DNA from: Clostridium sp.
GTDB taxonomy: Bacteria; Bacillota; Clostridia; Clostridiales; Clostridiaceae
DNA: 40,428 nucleotides
Reading direction: 5' to 3'
NCBI RefSeq assembly: GCF_030532265.1
Contig: NZ_JAUNLM010000017.1
Span: 1-40,428, forward strand
Part shown: positions 1 to 4,319 of the stretch, in pieces
Position numbering within the stretch: position 1 is the stretch's first letter
Layout of the letters: every line of letters starts with the position of its first letter
Notes under the pieces: generated by a model
Database searches by the model: none
Told to the model about the DNA's origin: nothing
Seen by the model: the letters and a program-made list of their open reading frames with translations, nothing else
Position numbers and translations under genes: made by a program

Positions 1-85
1 CTGGAATAGCTATTAAATCTCTCAAAAACTTTGTCATTTGAGGTTCGTATTCCTTTGATAATTTTTTAATTCTTTCGAAATCCAT
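1..85 (-). CDS. ygeY: YgeY-family M20 hydrolase, N-terminal fragment
   Basis: Only the first 28 codons are inside the window; the gene runs off the left edge. It starts at ATG 85-83 behind GGGGGAG (about 91-96) and reads MDFERIKKLSKEYEP, then QMTKFLRDLIAIP. The stretch MTKFLRDLIAIP closely matches the start of the selenium-metabolism-linked hydrolase YgeY, an M20-type zinc amidohydrolase that sits with ygeW and ygeX in E. coli and in many clostridia. Related M20 peptidases (ArgE/DapE-like) remain possible because no metal ligand is visible yet. The sigma-54 promoter at 141-158 fits this family, since the E. coli cluster carries a sigma-54 activator gene (ygeV). Confidence 0.7.
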   Translation of the reverse strand, partial: MDFERIKKLSKEYEPQMTKFLRDLIAIP

Positions 86-140
86 AATTTCTCCCCCTTA
101 TTCGTAAAAATCTTTATCTTTTTTTCTCACTTATTTATAT

Positions 141-158
141 CAGCAATATCTGTGCCAA
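141..158 (-). promoter_or_regulatory. sigma-54 (-24/-12) promoter of ygeY
   Basis: On the minus strand the sequence is TTGGCACA-GATA-TTGCTG. It has the GG (-24) and GC (-12) dinucleotides at the right spacing and matches the consensus TGGCACR-N4-TTGCW. Transcription would start near 131, about 45 nt upstream of the ygeY ATG. No good sigma-A promoter is seen between here and the gene. Confidence 0.85.
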
Positions 159-250
159 GTTTTTTATTATAAAAAAGATTATAGTATATGTTTTAACACA
201 AATTTTTACCTATTTTTTATTAAATTTATATATTTTATTTATAAAAAAAA

Positions 251-297
251 TGAAGATTATCAAATTGATAATCTCTTTCTCAATTTGATAATCTTCA
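251..297. repeat. Double palindrome, probable enhancer-binding sites (UAS)
   Basis: Two nested structures are seen. One is the perfect site ATTATCA-N3-TGATAAT at 256-272. The other is a near-copy TTTCTCA-N3-TGATAAT at 276-292, centred 20 bp away (about two helical turns). Together they form a 17-bp perfect inverted repeat, 251-267 with 281-297. The centres lie about 133 and 153 bp upstream of the predicted sigma-54 start, where activator sites usually lie. A run of T follows on the minus strand, so it could also act as a terminator, but no minus-strand transcript is known to enter it. Confidence 0.65.
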
Positions 298-339
298 AAA
301 ATCATTTTATAAGCCACTTTTATGGAAAAAATCACTTTT

Positions 340-354
340 TTATCATTTTGATAA
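340..354. promoter_or_regulatory. Third copy of the UAS-like palindrome
   Basis: TTATCA-TTT-TGATAA is a perfect 6+3+6 dyad with the same half-sites and spacing as the palindromes at 256-292. It is centred about 83 bp (eight turns) further upstream of the ygeY promoter. Confidence 0.5.
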
Positions 355-425
355 TTAAAATTTCTAGCATTTGCTTTAAATTTTTATGTTAAACCATTTA
401 AAAATAATATATTTTAAAATTTATA

Positions 426-454
426 TTCACTTTTTATTCTATTAGTGGTAAAAT
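426..454 (+). promoter_or_regulatory. Possible promoter of a short transcript
   Basis: TTCACT (426-431), 17 nt, TAAAAT (449-454). The start would be near 461. A weak Fur-like dyad TGATTCT-C-ATTATTT (468-482, 10 of 14 positions of the 7-1-7 consensus) lies just downstream. The -35 is only a 4/6 match. Confidence 0.35.
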
Positions 455-460
455 AAACCT

Positions 461-566
461 GTTGTTTGATTCTCATTATTTGAGGATTATTTTCATTTTT
501 ACATTCTTTTATTTTTGTTTTAGTTTTAAGGTAACCTAGAATATTCTTCTAGGTTACCTTTTAATT
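461..566 (+). ncRNA. Candidate small RNA of about 100 nt
   Basis: A short segment bounded by a possible promoter and a strong intrinsic terminator. It has no credible open reading frame, and a separate promoter for the next gene lies downstream. The predicted RNA is U-rich and unstructured at its 5' side, with one stable 3' hairpin, as many regulatory RNAs are. It could instead be an attenuated leader. No known riboswitch consensus was recognised. Confidence 0.3.
528..566 (+). terminator. Intrinsic terminator upstream of the antiporter gene
   Basis: A 14-bp perfect stem, AAGGTAACCTAGAA (528-541) with 547-560, 5-nt loop, followed on the plus strand by TTAATTTT. No plus-strand gene lies upstream within the window, which is why a small transcript is suspected. 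Confidence 0.75.
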
Positions 567-611
567 TTATTGAATATTTTTATATAATATTATTTTAATG
601 TACTACTCTCC

Positions 612-640
612 TTGATAAATTTATTTTTTATTATTAAAAT
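612..640 (+). promoter_or_regulatory. Sigma-A promoter of the CPA2 antiporter
   Basis: TTGATA (612-617), 17 nt, TAAAAT (635-640), giving a leader of about 38 nt before the ATG at 685. It lies downstream of the 528-566 terminator, so the gene has its own start. Confidence 0.6.
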
Positions 641-684
641 TAAACAAAACAATATTATAAAACTTAGGAAAAGAGGACATTAAA

Positions 685-2142
685 ATGGAAGAACATTTAA
701 TTAATTATGATTCTTTAATGATTCTAGCTATCGTAGCTTTCTTCACGCCATTTTTAGTGGCAAAATTAAAAAAACTAAAAGTTCCTTATCAAGTTGGCGA
801 AATATTTATAGGTATAATACTTGGTAAAAGTTTTTTAAACATAATACATCCAGATGTATGGATTATATTTTTATCTGATTTAGGTCTTGCTTATTTAATG
901 TTTTTAAGTGGACTTGAAATAAACTTTGATGACTTAAAATTGGTTGAAGGTGAAACTTTAAAAGATTCCAAAATTTTTGTAAGTATAAAAATGTTTGTAA
1001 TTTCAATTGTTATATCATTTATTTTATGTTTTATATTAAGATTTGTTGGAATATCTAACGGAAGATTATTTTTCACCTTCTTATTTACAGCAGCAGCTCC
1101 TGGGCTACTTGTTCCAATTTTAAAAAATAAACAAATTATAAGTAGTGAATTTGGTCAATCTTTATTGATTTTTGGTATTATAGCTGAATTTGTATGTTTA
1201 ATAGGAATTTCATTTATTTCTTCAGTTTCTATTTATGGATTATCTTTAAAAAGCTTTGAATTTTTAATAATATTTTTAGCAGCTATATTTATATATTTAC
1301 TTACTAAATTTATATTTAAAAAAAGAGATATTTCTTTAGTAGCATTTAAAAATTTACATTTAAGTGTTAGAGGTGCCTTTGTACTTGTTTTAGTACTTGT
1401 TGCAATATCTCAAAAAGCTGGTAGTGAAATAATACTTGGTTCATTTTTAGCTGGAATAATATTTTCTCTTTTAGCTGGAAAAGCAAAAGAAGAAATTTCT
1501 CACCAATTAGATGTTATTGGTTACGGATTTTTAATTCCAATATTTTTTATAATGGTTGGTGTAAATATAGATTTACGTTCTATAATTGAAAACCCAAGTT
1601 CTATAGCTAAAATACCTGTATTTTTAATAATATTATTTTTAGTAAAATTAATACCTTCCTTATTACTTAAGAAAAAGTATGGTATAAGAAATGCTATAGC
1701 ATCATCAATGATACTTACAGCACAACTTAGTTTAACTATAGTTGGATCTCAAATGGCTATGCAACTTGGTTATATTAATGAAGCAGATTATTCTGCATTT
1801 ATAGTTACTACTGTTATTTCATGTATTATATTCCCTATATTATTTGAGAAACTTTTAATTTTAGATAAAAATACAGCTAAAACATCTGAAAAATCAGATA
1901 AAATAATAATACGTGAACTTGTTTTAAGTAGTGAATACTTTATAGGTAAGTCACTTAAAGAATGTAAATTACCTATAGGATGTAGAATATTTTCTATTGT
2001 TAGAAATAACGAAGAAATTATGCCAAATGCAGATACTATTCTAAAAAAAGATGATATTATCATAATAGCTGGAATTAAAAATTCTGTTGAAGATACTTTA
2101 AATATGCTTACTGTTTGTGATCTTCATTTGCCTGAAAATTAA
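685..2142 (+). CDS. CPA2-family cation/proton antiporter with RCK_C domain
   Basis: A 485-aa membrane protein. Residues 1-400 are about 12 hydrophobic segments of the Na+/H+ or K+/H+ exchanger (Kef/CPA2) type, with the typical opening GEIFIGIILGKSF and FLSGLEINFDDLK. Residues about 408-478 form an RCK_C (TrkA-C) domain containing VLSSEYFIGKSLKE and DDIIIIAG. There is no NAD-binding TrkA-N domain between them. The start follows GAGG with 8-nt spacing. The family exchanges monovalent cations for protons. RCK_C domains in Firmicutes antiporters such as CpaA bind c-di-AMP, which is a possibility here rather than something shown. It is monocistronic, closed by the terminator at 2141-2174. Confidence 0.85.
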   Translation: MEEHLINYDSLMILAIVAFFTPFLVAKLKKLKVPYQVGEIFIGIILGKSFLNIIHPDVWIIFLSDLGLAYLMFLSGLEINFDDLKLVEGETLKDSKIFVSIKMFVISIVISFILCFILRFVGISNGRLFFTFLFTAAAPGLLVPILKNKQIISSEFGQSLLIFGIIAEFVCLIGISFISSVSIYGLSLKSFEFLIIFLAAIFIYLLTKFIFKKRDISLVAFKNLHLSVRGAFVLVLVLVAISQKAGSEIILGSFLAGIIFSLLAGKAKEEISHQLDVIGYGFLIPIFFIMVGVNIDLRSIIENPSSIAKIPVFLIILFLVKLIPSLLLKKKYGIRNAIASSMILTAQLSLTIVGSQMAMQLGYINEADYSAFIVTTVISCIIFPILFEKLLILDKNTAKTSEKSDKIIIRELVLSSEYFIGKSLKECKLPIGCRIFSIVRNNEEIMPNADTILKKDDIIIIAGIKNSVEDTLNMLTVCDLHLPEN

Positions 2143-2174
2143 AAGATAAGGAGTTTTTAAACTCCTTATCTTTT
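2141..2174. terminator. Bidirectional terminator between antiporter and dhaM
   Basis: AAAAGATAAGGAG pairs with CTCCTTATCTTTT around an 8-nt TTTTTAAA loop. T-runs flank it on both strands. It overlaps the antiporter stop codon and ends 1 nt before the dhaM stop, so it serves both convergent genes. Confidence 0.85.
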
Positions 2175-2175
2175 T

Positions 2176-2568
2176 TTATAAAATTTTATTTAAACTTAAA
2201 TCCTTTAAAGCATTTTTTATATTTTCAATATTTTCTTCTAAACTACTTTGTACAGCTGCTGTTATAGCACCTTCAACAAGAGCACAATCTGTAATTTGAA
2301 TTTTTTCTTTATCAAATTCTTCATCTAAAAAATCTATTGCCATTTCAGTATTCATATAAGCACTTCCTAAATCAAAAAGAATTAAAACACCATCTTCTGA
2401 ATATACTTTTTTAATTCCTTCTGATATCTTTTCCATATCAGTACCTATTCTTCCATCAGAAGTACCACCAGCATCTATAATAGGAACATTAGGTGCCATT
2501 TGAGCAGCCATTTCTACTACCCCTTTTGCAATATTTTCACTATGTGATATTATAACTAATCCTACCAT
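2176..2568 (-). CDS. dhaM: PTS-dependent dihydroxyacetone kinase, phosphotransfer subunit DhaM
   Basis: A 130-aa EIIA-Man-type domain opening MVGLVIISHS, in which His9 is the expected phosphorylation site, followed by DAGGTSDGRIGT and FDLGSAYMNTEMA. It passes phosphate from HPr to the ADP held by DhaL. Unlike E. coli DhaM it lacks the fused HPr and EI-like domains, so it must take phosphate from the general PTS proteins. It is the last gene of dhaK-dhaL-dhaM, 71 nt after dhaL, with GAGAGGAAG upstream at a rather long spacing. Confidence 0.92.
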   Translation of the reverse strand: MVGLVIISHSENIAKGVVEMAAQMAPNVPIIDAGGTSDGRIGTDMEKISEGIKKVYSEDGVLILFDLGSAYMNTEMAIDFLDEEFDKEKIQITDCALVEGAITAAVQSSLEENIENIKNALKDLSLNKIL

Positions 2569-2639
2569 ATATTATTAATCTTCCTCTCAAAACTTAATTT
2601 AAAATTTATAAAAAATTGTTTTGTAATTGTCTAATTCTC

Positions 2640-3260
2640 TTATATTTCTTCATATATAGTTTCTAATATATAATACATTGATGTTGCACCTGCATCTTGG
2701 TGTCCAATACTTCTATCGCCTAGATAACTTGCTCTTCCTTTTGTAGCTTTTATTTCCTTTGTAAATTCAACACCTTTTTTTGCAGCATTCTTACCTTTTT
2801 CTAAAACAATCTTTGGATTGTCAGAGTTTTTTAATTCTTCTTCCATAGCTTTTATTGCTGGTTCTAAAGCATCTATCATTGTTTTTTCGCCTTCTACTGC
2901 TTTACCTCTTTGTTTAATTCCATCAAGAGCTGCCTTAAGAACATTTATAAAATCATATATATCAATATTATCTTTATTATTAACCATCATGGAACCTTTC
3001 ATAAATGCAGTTCCATAAAGTGGTCCTGATGCCCCTCCTACATTAGATACTAATGCCATTCCTGTCTTTTTAAATATATTGCCTATATTACTTCCATCAT
3101 CATCTTTAAGTTTATCTACAACAGCATTAAATCCTTTACTCATATTTAATCCGTGATCACCATCTCCTATAGCTGCATCAAGTTCTGTAAGATATTCTTT
3201 TTTTAAATCTATTTTTTCGTTTATTTTTCCTATTACTTCTATAACCCTTTTACCATTCAT
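2640..3260 (-). CDS. dhaL: Dihydroxyacetone kinase ADP-binding subunit DhaL
   Basis: A 206-aa protein of normal DhaL length. The Mg2+/ADP-binding signature is ELDAAIGDGDHGLNM, with Asp28, Asp33 and Asp35 as metal ligands, followed by GGASGPLYGTAF and the closing GDRSIGHQDAGATSM. It holds ADP permanently as a cofactor, receives phosphate from DhaM and transfers it to dihydroxyacetone bound on DhaK in the cytoplasm. The start follows AGGAAT. It is 60 nt downstream of dhaK. Confidence 0.95.
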   Translation of the reverse strand: MNGKRVIEVIGKINEKIDLKKEYLTELDAAIGDGDHGLNMSKGFNAVVDKLKDDDGSNIGNIFKKTGMALVSNVGGASGPLYGTAFMKGSMMVNNKDNIDIYDFINVLKAALDGIKQRGKAVEGEKTMIDALEPAIKAMEEELKNSDNPKIVLEKGKNAAKKGVEFTKEIKATKGRASYLGDRSIGHQDAGATSMYYILETIYEEI

Positions 3261-3320
3261 TTTTATTCCTCCATAAAACCTTATATTATATATTTATCTT
3301 AAGTGTTTTTATAATATTTT

Positions 3321-4319
3321 TTAAAATACTTTAAATGCAGGTGTATCTGCTTTTGAATCTAAAAGTTCTTTTAATTCTTCATCAAGCTTTAATATTGATA
3401 CTGAACATCCAGCCATTTCCAAAGAAGTCATATATTCACCTACAAGAGTTTTATAAACCTTAATTCCTTTTTCATTAAGCATTTCTCTAACTTTTTTATT
3501 AATTATATATAATTCCATAAGTGGTGTTCCAGAAAGTCCATTTACCATAACTGCAACTTCTGAATTTTTTTCTATAGGCATATCAGATAATATCTTATTT
3601 ACTAACTGCTCAGCTATATTATCTGCTGATGAAATTTTTTCTCTATGTGTTCCTGGCTCACCATGAATACCCATTCCTATTTCAATTTCATCTTCTCCTA
3701 AAGTAAAATTTGCTTTTCCAGCAGCAGGAACTATACAAGATGTTAATGCCATTCCCATACTTCTTATATTTTTTATTACTTTCTCTGCAACATTTTTTAC
3801 TTCCTTAAGACTTGCTCCCTTTTCAGCTTTTGCTCCAGCAATTTTATGAACAAAAATAGTTCCAGCAATTCCCCTTCTTCCTGCTGTGTAAAGACTATCT
3901 TCAACAGCAACATCATCATTTACAACAACATAATCAACATTTATTCCTTCCATTTCAGCCATTTCTTTTGCCATATCAAAATTCATAACATCACCAGTAT
4001 AATTTTTTATTATAAGTAATGTTCCAGATCCATTATCTACAGCTTTTATAGCTTCATATACTTGATCTGGAGTTGGTGATGTAAATACAGCTCCACAAAC
4101 TGCTGCATCAAGCATTCCATAACCTACATATCCCCCATGTGCAGGTTCATGACCACTTCCTCCTCCACTTACTAAAGCTACTTTTCCCTTGTCTTTAGAA
4201 TTTTTTCTAACTAACACATCAAAACCATCTAATTTTTCTAAATAATCTTCATGCGCATAAACAATTCCTTGTAACATATCCTCTAAAACATTGCTTGGAT
4301 CATTTATTAACTTTTTCAT
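3321..4319 (-). CDS. dhaK: Dihydroxyacetone kinase substrate-binding subunit DhaK
   Basis: A 332-aa protein. VSGGGSGHEPAHGG (about 50-63) and KNYTGDVMNF (Asp110) form the active site. His219 in MGIHGEPGTHRE is the residue that binds dihydroxyacetone covalently as a hemiaminal. The product, dihydroxyacetone phosphate, enters glycolysis. The RBS is GGGGAG. No glycerol dehydrogenase, glycerol facilitator or DhaR/DhaS regulator is in the window, so the source of dihydroxyacetone and the control of the operon are not visible. A TATAAT hexamer precedes the gene without a clear -35, so it may be co-transcribed with the gene at 4414-5694. Confidence 0.95.
   Translation of the reverse strand: MKKLINDPSNVLEDMLQGIVYAHEDYLEKLDGFDVLVRKNSKDKGKVALVSGGGSGHEPAHGGYVGYGMLDAAVCGAVFTSPTPDQVYEAIKAVDNGSGTLLIIKNYTGDVMNFDMAKEMAEMEGINVDYVVVNDDVAVEDSLYTAGRRGIAGTIFVHKIAGAKAEKGASLKEVKNVAEKVIKNIRSMGMALTSCIVPAAGKANFTLGEDEIEIGMGIHGEPGTHREKISSADNIAEQLVNKILSDMPIEKNSEVAVMVNGLSGTPLMELYIINKKVREMLNEKGIKVYKTLVGEYMTSLEMAGCSVSILKLDEELKELLDSKADTPAFKVF

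Follow-up and report, generated by a model that had tools for sequence, protein, structure and literature searches.

A probable DioR-type sigma-54 promoter with three palindromic upstream sites precedes ygeY in a Clostridium genome

Gut bacteria break down uric acid anaerobically, and ygeY is a gene of the bacterial anaerobic route of this breakdown. In a 2.48-Mb draft genome of Clostridium sp., the beginning of a ygeY gene is found at one end of contig C71, which is analysed here in its full length of 40,428 nucleotides and is referred to as the window. The original prediction, made from the sequence alone, had recognized a sigma-54 promoter and three palindromes upstream of this gene, and had proposed them as the target of a YgeV-like activator. 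The locus raises the question of whether this arrangement is a control region and, if so, which protein reads the palindromes. Our preferred reading, to which we assign a probability of about 0.86, is a sigma-54 promoter for ygeY, with the three palindromes as UAS for a DioR/YgeV-type protein encoded on another contig of the same genome, C37.

Features of the locus are collected in Table 1. The -24/-12 element, read on the minus strand from 158 down to 142 as TTGGCACAGATATTGCT, had been described as near-perfect and is an exact match with correct spacing; transcription of ygeY would start near 131. Palindromes are centred where they had been placed, two of them exact and the middle one with a single mismatch, and their position upstream of an exact -24/-12 element supports the enhancer-type sigma-54 layout. 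Promoter and sites indeed lie upstream of ygeY, while the start of the gene had to be corrected to 85. As the contig starts within the gene, the window takes in no more than 28 codons, and the rest of this ygeY was not found anywhere in the assembly. The encoded 28 residues share 19 with the YgeY start of a relative, whose protein scores above the NCBIfam YgeY cut-off. Spacings between neighbouring sites, 20 and 83 bp, correspond to 1.9 and 7.9 turns (10.5 bp per turn), and therefore the three sites are only roughly on the same face of the helix. Elsewhere in the window, the dihydroxyacetone kinase genes dhaM, dhaL and dhaK are consecutive on the minus strand (2176-4319). A terminator-like hairpin of 14 pairs with a T tail was noted on the plus strand (528-560), ahead of a gene at 685 that resembles cation:proton antiporters; a transcript ending there is accounted for by neither a gene nor an Rfam family.

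Table 1. Positions of ygeY and of its predicted control features in the window
Feature	Position	Strand	Description
ygeY, first 28 codons	1..85	minus	translation MDFERIKKLSKEYEPQMTKFLRDLIAIP; start codon at 85
likely ribosome-binding site GGGGGAG	91..97	minus	read from sequence; identical string before second ygeY copy
sigma-54 promoter	143..158	minus	-24 GG at 155-156, -12 GC at 143-144; exact match
larger inverted repeat around proximal and middle sites	251..297	minus	17-base perfect arms, 251-267 / 281-297
proximal predicted enhancer site	257..271	.	TTATCAAATTGATAA; exact palindrome, centre 264; array kept in relatives
middle predicted enhancer site	277..291	.	TTCTCAATTTGATAA; one mismatch, centre 284
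distal predicted enhancer site	340..354	.	TTATCATTTTGATAA; exact palindrome, centre 347

At up to one mismatch, the window contains three palindromes in 40 kb (0.92 expected; 4 of 100 shuffles reach three) and one promoter-like match (1.39 expected). Counts in the window are near the level of shuffles, and the case therefore rests on arrangement and conservation. These weakly elevated counts would agree with palindromes and a promoter look-alike generated by chance in AT-rich sequence, an explanation of practically negligible probability: it is already refuted by conservation, and scrambled-motif controls and the test in E. coli, both described below, speak against it as well. What goes beyond chance is the arrangement of sites and not their counts. 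The exact palindrome occurs at seven places in the genome, and five of them fall into three short stretches, on C37, in the window and on C73, each upstream of a sigma-54-like promoter. Exact matches to the -24/-12 pattern number nine genome-wide, two of which, the window's and that of dpaL, are accompanied by sites. Within 350 bp of the other seven, no palindrome was detected at up to two mismatches, and some of these seven may be chance matches. The promoter on C73 deviates from the search pattern at one position and came to light via its palindromes; among 110 one-mismatch places in the genome, it is the one examined individually.

This third array is located at the end of contig C73, before the start of a second ygeY, which differs from that in the window in 1 of 28 residues. 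Comparison of the two segments (L030, G000:C73, 5363-5722, and window 1-354) disclosed near-identical ygeY copies and the same layout of sites, together with diverged promoters. In the closest relative, having an activator 93% identical, two contigs (L132 and L133) likewise break off where ygeY starts, and each carries an array of its own. Because contigs stop at this position in both genomes, the assembly break is probably due, in both, to two near-identical ygeY copies.

Sigma-54 polymerase requires an enhancer-bound AAA+ activator. The gene for sigma-54 itself, rpoN, on which the original prediction depended, is present in the genome (E 4e-56), and the sigma-54 activator domain was detected at 10 places, five of them strong. 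One strong activator is encoded on C37, directly upstream of the dpaL site array, in the gene order yqeC-ygfJ-yqeB-xdhC-dioR-dpaL-ygeY2-amidohydrolase-ssnA-DHOdh-xdh. This cluster is composed of genes for the selenium-dependent molybdenum cofactor and for uric-acid breakdown. YqeC, YqeB, DpaL, SsnA and a YgeY-family protein score over NCBIfam cut-offs, matches of YgfJ and XdhC are below them, and the amidohydrolase, dihydroorotate-dehydrogenase-like and xanthine-dehydrogenase-like genes were named from Pfam domains. Three palindromes and an exact -24/-12 element are situated between the activator gene and dpaL. The activator contains the sigma-54 interaction domain (PF00158), including a GAFTGA-type loop in the form GAFSGA, and the Fis-type helix-turn-helix (PF02954).

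Judging by gene content, the C37 activator appears to fit the published DioR group, and the genes behind array-bearing promoters (dpaL, ygeY, ssnA, xdh) are as expected of a DioR/YgeV regulon. In the sensor domain (activator at L029:9403-11199, minus strand, residues 84-93), the motif CxxCx5C is invariant over 18 aligned clostridial activators, and it also occurs in YgeV of E. coli and Photobacterium. Invariance of the three cysteines suggests a metal or redox element. A DioR/YgeV protein is the likely reader of the palindromes. The proposal of a YgeV-like reader is thus favoured by the homologue in the genome and by the motif in the E. coli YgeV region (see below), while its gene resides outside the window, on C37; this separation of the activator gene from the promoter in the window counts against the preferred reading, as does the truncation of ygeY.

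Conservation was assessed in 147 genomes, of which 36, the studied one included, carry the activator at E 1e-120 or better; 37 activator loci were taken from relatives. An array was defined as a -24/-12 element (up to one mismatch) accompanied, 40-330 bp upstream, by two or more sites, of which one had no more than a single mismatch. Such arrays are present at 31 of the 37 loci, all 31 also having a close pair of sites. With five reversed or scrambled versions of the palindrome, the counts were 0, 0, 1, 1 and 1 of 37 under the array rule, and 0 of 37 under the pair rule. The palindromes are thus kept in relatives, as anticipated, including beside ygeY, and in several of them the array precedes an operon ygeY-ygeW-carbamate kinase-permease-dpaL-ssnA.

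The array goes together with the DioR gene and with the recognition helix that this gene encodes. The helix in the 31 array loci has the form LGIG[I/L/V/R]ATLYR[K/R], 26 of the loci having LGIGIATLYRK and the other 5 a near variant. Helices of the six array-less loci are LGIGRATLFRK (in two), LGISLATLYRK, LGISLTTFYRR, LGVSLSTLYRK and LGISRATIYRK, and the pairing of site and activator is in this respect specific. Four more strong sigma-54 activator domains in the genome leave room for a regulator other than DioR/YgeV binding the palindromes; we hold this to be highly unlikely, as arrays track the DioR gene and helix. In addition, the activators on C18, C48 and C1 resemble LevR/PRD types by reading of their sequences, and the one on C128 has a different helix and adjoins an alcohol-dehydrogenase-like gene whose promoter is devoid of such a site. 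Two loci with more distant activators, L098 (helix LGIGRATLYRK) and L162, carry variant sites whose half-sites read GTATCA, which suggests a joint change of helix and half-site.

Across 56 related elements, the two sites of the pair are 17-23 bp apart, usually 18-21 bp, and the distal site is mostly about 55-80 bp farther up. These variable spacings rule out strict helical phasing as a conserved feature, and the sites, claimed originally to be phased on one face, are so only roughly in the window. A covariance model of the pair, trained on activator-bearing genomes, has matches in 34 of these 36 genomes versus 15 of 111 others; at least one of the 15 has a more distant activator beside the match. 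The promoter string of C. difficile dpaL2 gave one match in 391 genomes of the class, in a member of the window's own family. A general AAA-domain pattern scan of contigs for named relatives returned mostly unrelated activators among the matches listed.

Likeness to E. coli YgeV (IsrR) extends over the full length of the C37 activator, with 36% identity. For the sensor part alone, the E-value is 5e-27, compared with 5e-6 for another activator of the genome, and NorR gave no hit. YgeV and the C37 activator share the helix LGIGIATLYRK as well as the motif CxxCx5C at residue 84. When 34 kb of E. coli were scanned with a matrix built on 63 distinct clostridial sites, four of the six top hits fell upstream of ygfK, ygfT, ygeW and xdhA, and two fell within genes, yqeC and ygeX, which speaks against the preferred reading. 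Sites at the four promoters score 25.0, 19.1, 19.1 and 11.7, and these promoters are the sigma-54 promoters listed in that stretch in Table 1 of a ChIP-seq study (Bonocora 2015, PMC4591121); their genes belong to the YgeV iModulon (PMC12132413). Their summed score was reached by none of 200,000 random window sets and none of 3,000 composition shuffles, and control E. coli sigma-54 promoters scored 0.6 (norV), -9.5 (hydN), 1.8 (hycA) and 3.5 (hypA). A score as high as that of the xdhA site is attained by 3.9% of random windows, and two hits in a 30-kb control stretch exceed it (15.6 and 12.6); this site is therefore not convincing alone. The similar palindromes are located 125-210 bp upstream of the four ChIP-mapped promoters and differ from the clostridial arrays in being mostly single and degenerate. 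In Photobacterium pectinilyticum, the gene of a homologue is oriented away from genes taken to be ygeW and ygeX, and the site before ygeW (score 22.4) is 181 bp from a promoter-like TTGGCACAGTTATTGAT picked by eye.

Together, the two sites of the pair form an inverted repeat, which in the window is embedded in a larger one (Table 1). Eight T follow this repeat in the promoter direction, its predicted fold has -22.4 kcal/mol (z -5.0), and it could form an RNA hairpin. The stem is AT-rich, a terminator scan made no call there, and T tracts are mixed in relatives. An Rfam search of window positions 1-2400 gave nothing at the site and one sub-threshold match. When 39 elements were aligned, 85.2% of cells in the full hairpin were paired versus 72.0% in shuffles, and 129 cells were changed on both sides versus 57.9. 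The covariation score was 0.351 versus 0.144, with 0 of 500 shuffles as high; kinship among the 39 elements, drawn from the first 49 only, inflates these covariation figures. In slid structures, paired cells fall to 56% or less.

Altogether 71 pair elements were found (49 + 22), from which 15 were dropped, leaving the 56 that were counted. Dropped rows were eight near-duplicates (> 90% identical) and seven overlapping, opposite-strand, re-fetched or variant-motif rows; arm extension was 0-1 in two near-duplicates and two L094 rows and 3-11 in others, both kinds thus being dropped. Outer arms of at least 4 bp characterize 22 of the 56 non-redundant elements versus 1.0% expected from arms paired between elements. 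Arm extension is also observed at distal single sites (12 of 33, 4.4% expected), and covariation was accordingly rejected as a property special to the pair. In L067, L068, L069, L134 and L137, the distal palindrome tops a hairpin with at least 12 more paired bases per side; these hairpins are often flanked by A and T runs and are terminator-like by eye.

According to one explanation of these structures, the proximal pair would serve chiefly as an intrinsic terminator or RNA hairpin, stopping incoming transcripts and insulating the promoter, with protein binding secondary or absent. Covarying hairpin arms, the abundance of long outer arms, the T run in the window and the long distal hairpins of five relatives fit such a role. 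So does the composition of the 22 long-arm elements, where T is richer downstream than A on the mirror side (p 0.014; p 0.65 for arms below 4 bp). We nevertheless judge it very unlikely, since the half-site sequence is kept and its outer halves are nearly invariant, which a terminator does not need. In addition, a clean T tract is absent from most elements, no co-directional gene is upstream in the window, the E. coli sites are single palindromes, and both ygeY loci have the outer arm partly or wholly lost in the sister genome. Sorted by upstream gene, arms of at least 4 bp occur in 14 of 30 elements with a co-directional gene within 150 bp, 5 of 18 with one farther away, 3 of 7 with a divergent gene and 0 of 1 with no gene. 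Long arms show no clear excess immediately behind a co-directional gene, and no clear link to gene orientation or distance emerged for the hairpin as a terminator of the gene before it. G-U pairs show no enrichment relative to shuffles (45 vs 52.8), and with A-C pairs at 19 vs 30.0, this comparison was uninformative as a test of the RNA strand.

Another explanation relates solely to the hairpin and does not conflict with the preferred reading of the sites. The palindromes may have been extended and held in register by mutational template switching, which perfects imperfect inverted repeats, and the covariation of the hairpin would then have no role beyond that of the protein sites; we consider the odds of this explanation to be not far short of even. 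It accords with extension at both the pair and the distal site, in all gene orientations, and with its gain or loss between sister genomes. The T-side asymmetry and the A-/T-flanked 12-base arms at five distal sites look, on the other hand, selected for termination. In the dioR-dpaL hairpin of the sister genome, a seventh pair is kept through a G-C to A-T change. We regard the palindromes as enhancer sites that in some cases became part of terminators, or that template switching has lengthened. In the accessible portion of a study on a butanol-responsive sigma-54 promoter with a hairpin near the enhancer, deletion of the hairpin is reported to have had little effect (PMC8899819).

A DioR regulon was predicted by comparative genomics by Nie et al. 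2019 (PMC6615313); in the accessible portion of that paper, DioR is said to have a distinct motif, and its targets include dpaL and ygeW-ygfK-ssnA-ygeY. The original prediction knew of no described specificity of this kind; a regulon with a motif of its own had been predicted there. Loci studied here have in common with that DioR group the targets (dpaL, ygeY, ssnA, yqeB, yqeC-ygfJ-yqeB-xdhC and pbuX), the activator beside dpaL and several UAS 100-250 bp upstream of a sigma-54 promoter. Going by gene content, our sites would be identical with the published DioR motif. The same portion gives DioR function as unknown, and relative to it the reductive uric-acid pathway, the tie to E. coli YgeV by helix and site, and the embedding in hairpins are added here. 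DioR1/DioR2 of C. difficile (Soutourina et al. 2020, PMC7438776) share, as far as the accessible text goes, the activator group, the pathway and the assigned sigma-54 promoters of pbuX, dpaL1, dpaL2 and tdcF; the DioR assignment for C. difficile is repeated in PMC7438776 and in corresponding parts of PMC11448449. According to excerpts of PMC9426417, which name no binding site, work on YgeV has centred on its role as an indole-responsive regulator. In the searched literature, which was available in part and had subscription journals outside it, neither a YgeV binding motif nor a DioR-YgeV link was found. Regulation of uric-acid genes is called poorly understood in the accessible text of a 2025 pathway study (PMC12507026).

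Taken with the preferred reading, the following course of activation may be proposed. The DioR/YgeV-type protein would be a one-component activator, with its conserved cysteine motif in the N-terminal sensor, and its dimers would occupy the proximal pair and the distal site. A signal, possibly a purine-degradation intermediate or the redox or selenium state, would induce hexamer assembly. DNA looping would then bring the activator to sigma-54 polymerase at -24/-12, and ATP hydrolysis would lead to promoter melting. In this way ygeY, the genes dpaL-ygeY2-uacY-ssnA-uacX-xdhD and the second ygeY would be switched on jointly.

The ygeY promoter is probably a DioR-type sigma-54 promoter, and the covarying hairpins around enhancer sites stand as a separate observation. 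More broadly, one code, TTATCA-N3-TGATAA, read by DioR/YgeV, may control anaerobic uric-acid breakdown in Clostridia, Vibrionaceae and E. coli, with clostridial palindromes doubling as terminator stems; we advance this combined proposal tentatively, rating it clearly below even odds. If true, a single sequence would both recruit the activator and block incoming transcription. New here are the cross-phylum DNA code for DioR/YgeV and its placement in the pathway, and the evidence points, in two phyla, to a likely activator together with the DNA and the genes that it would target.
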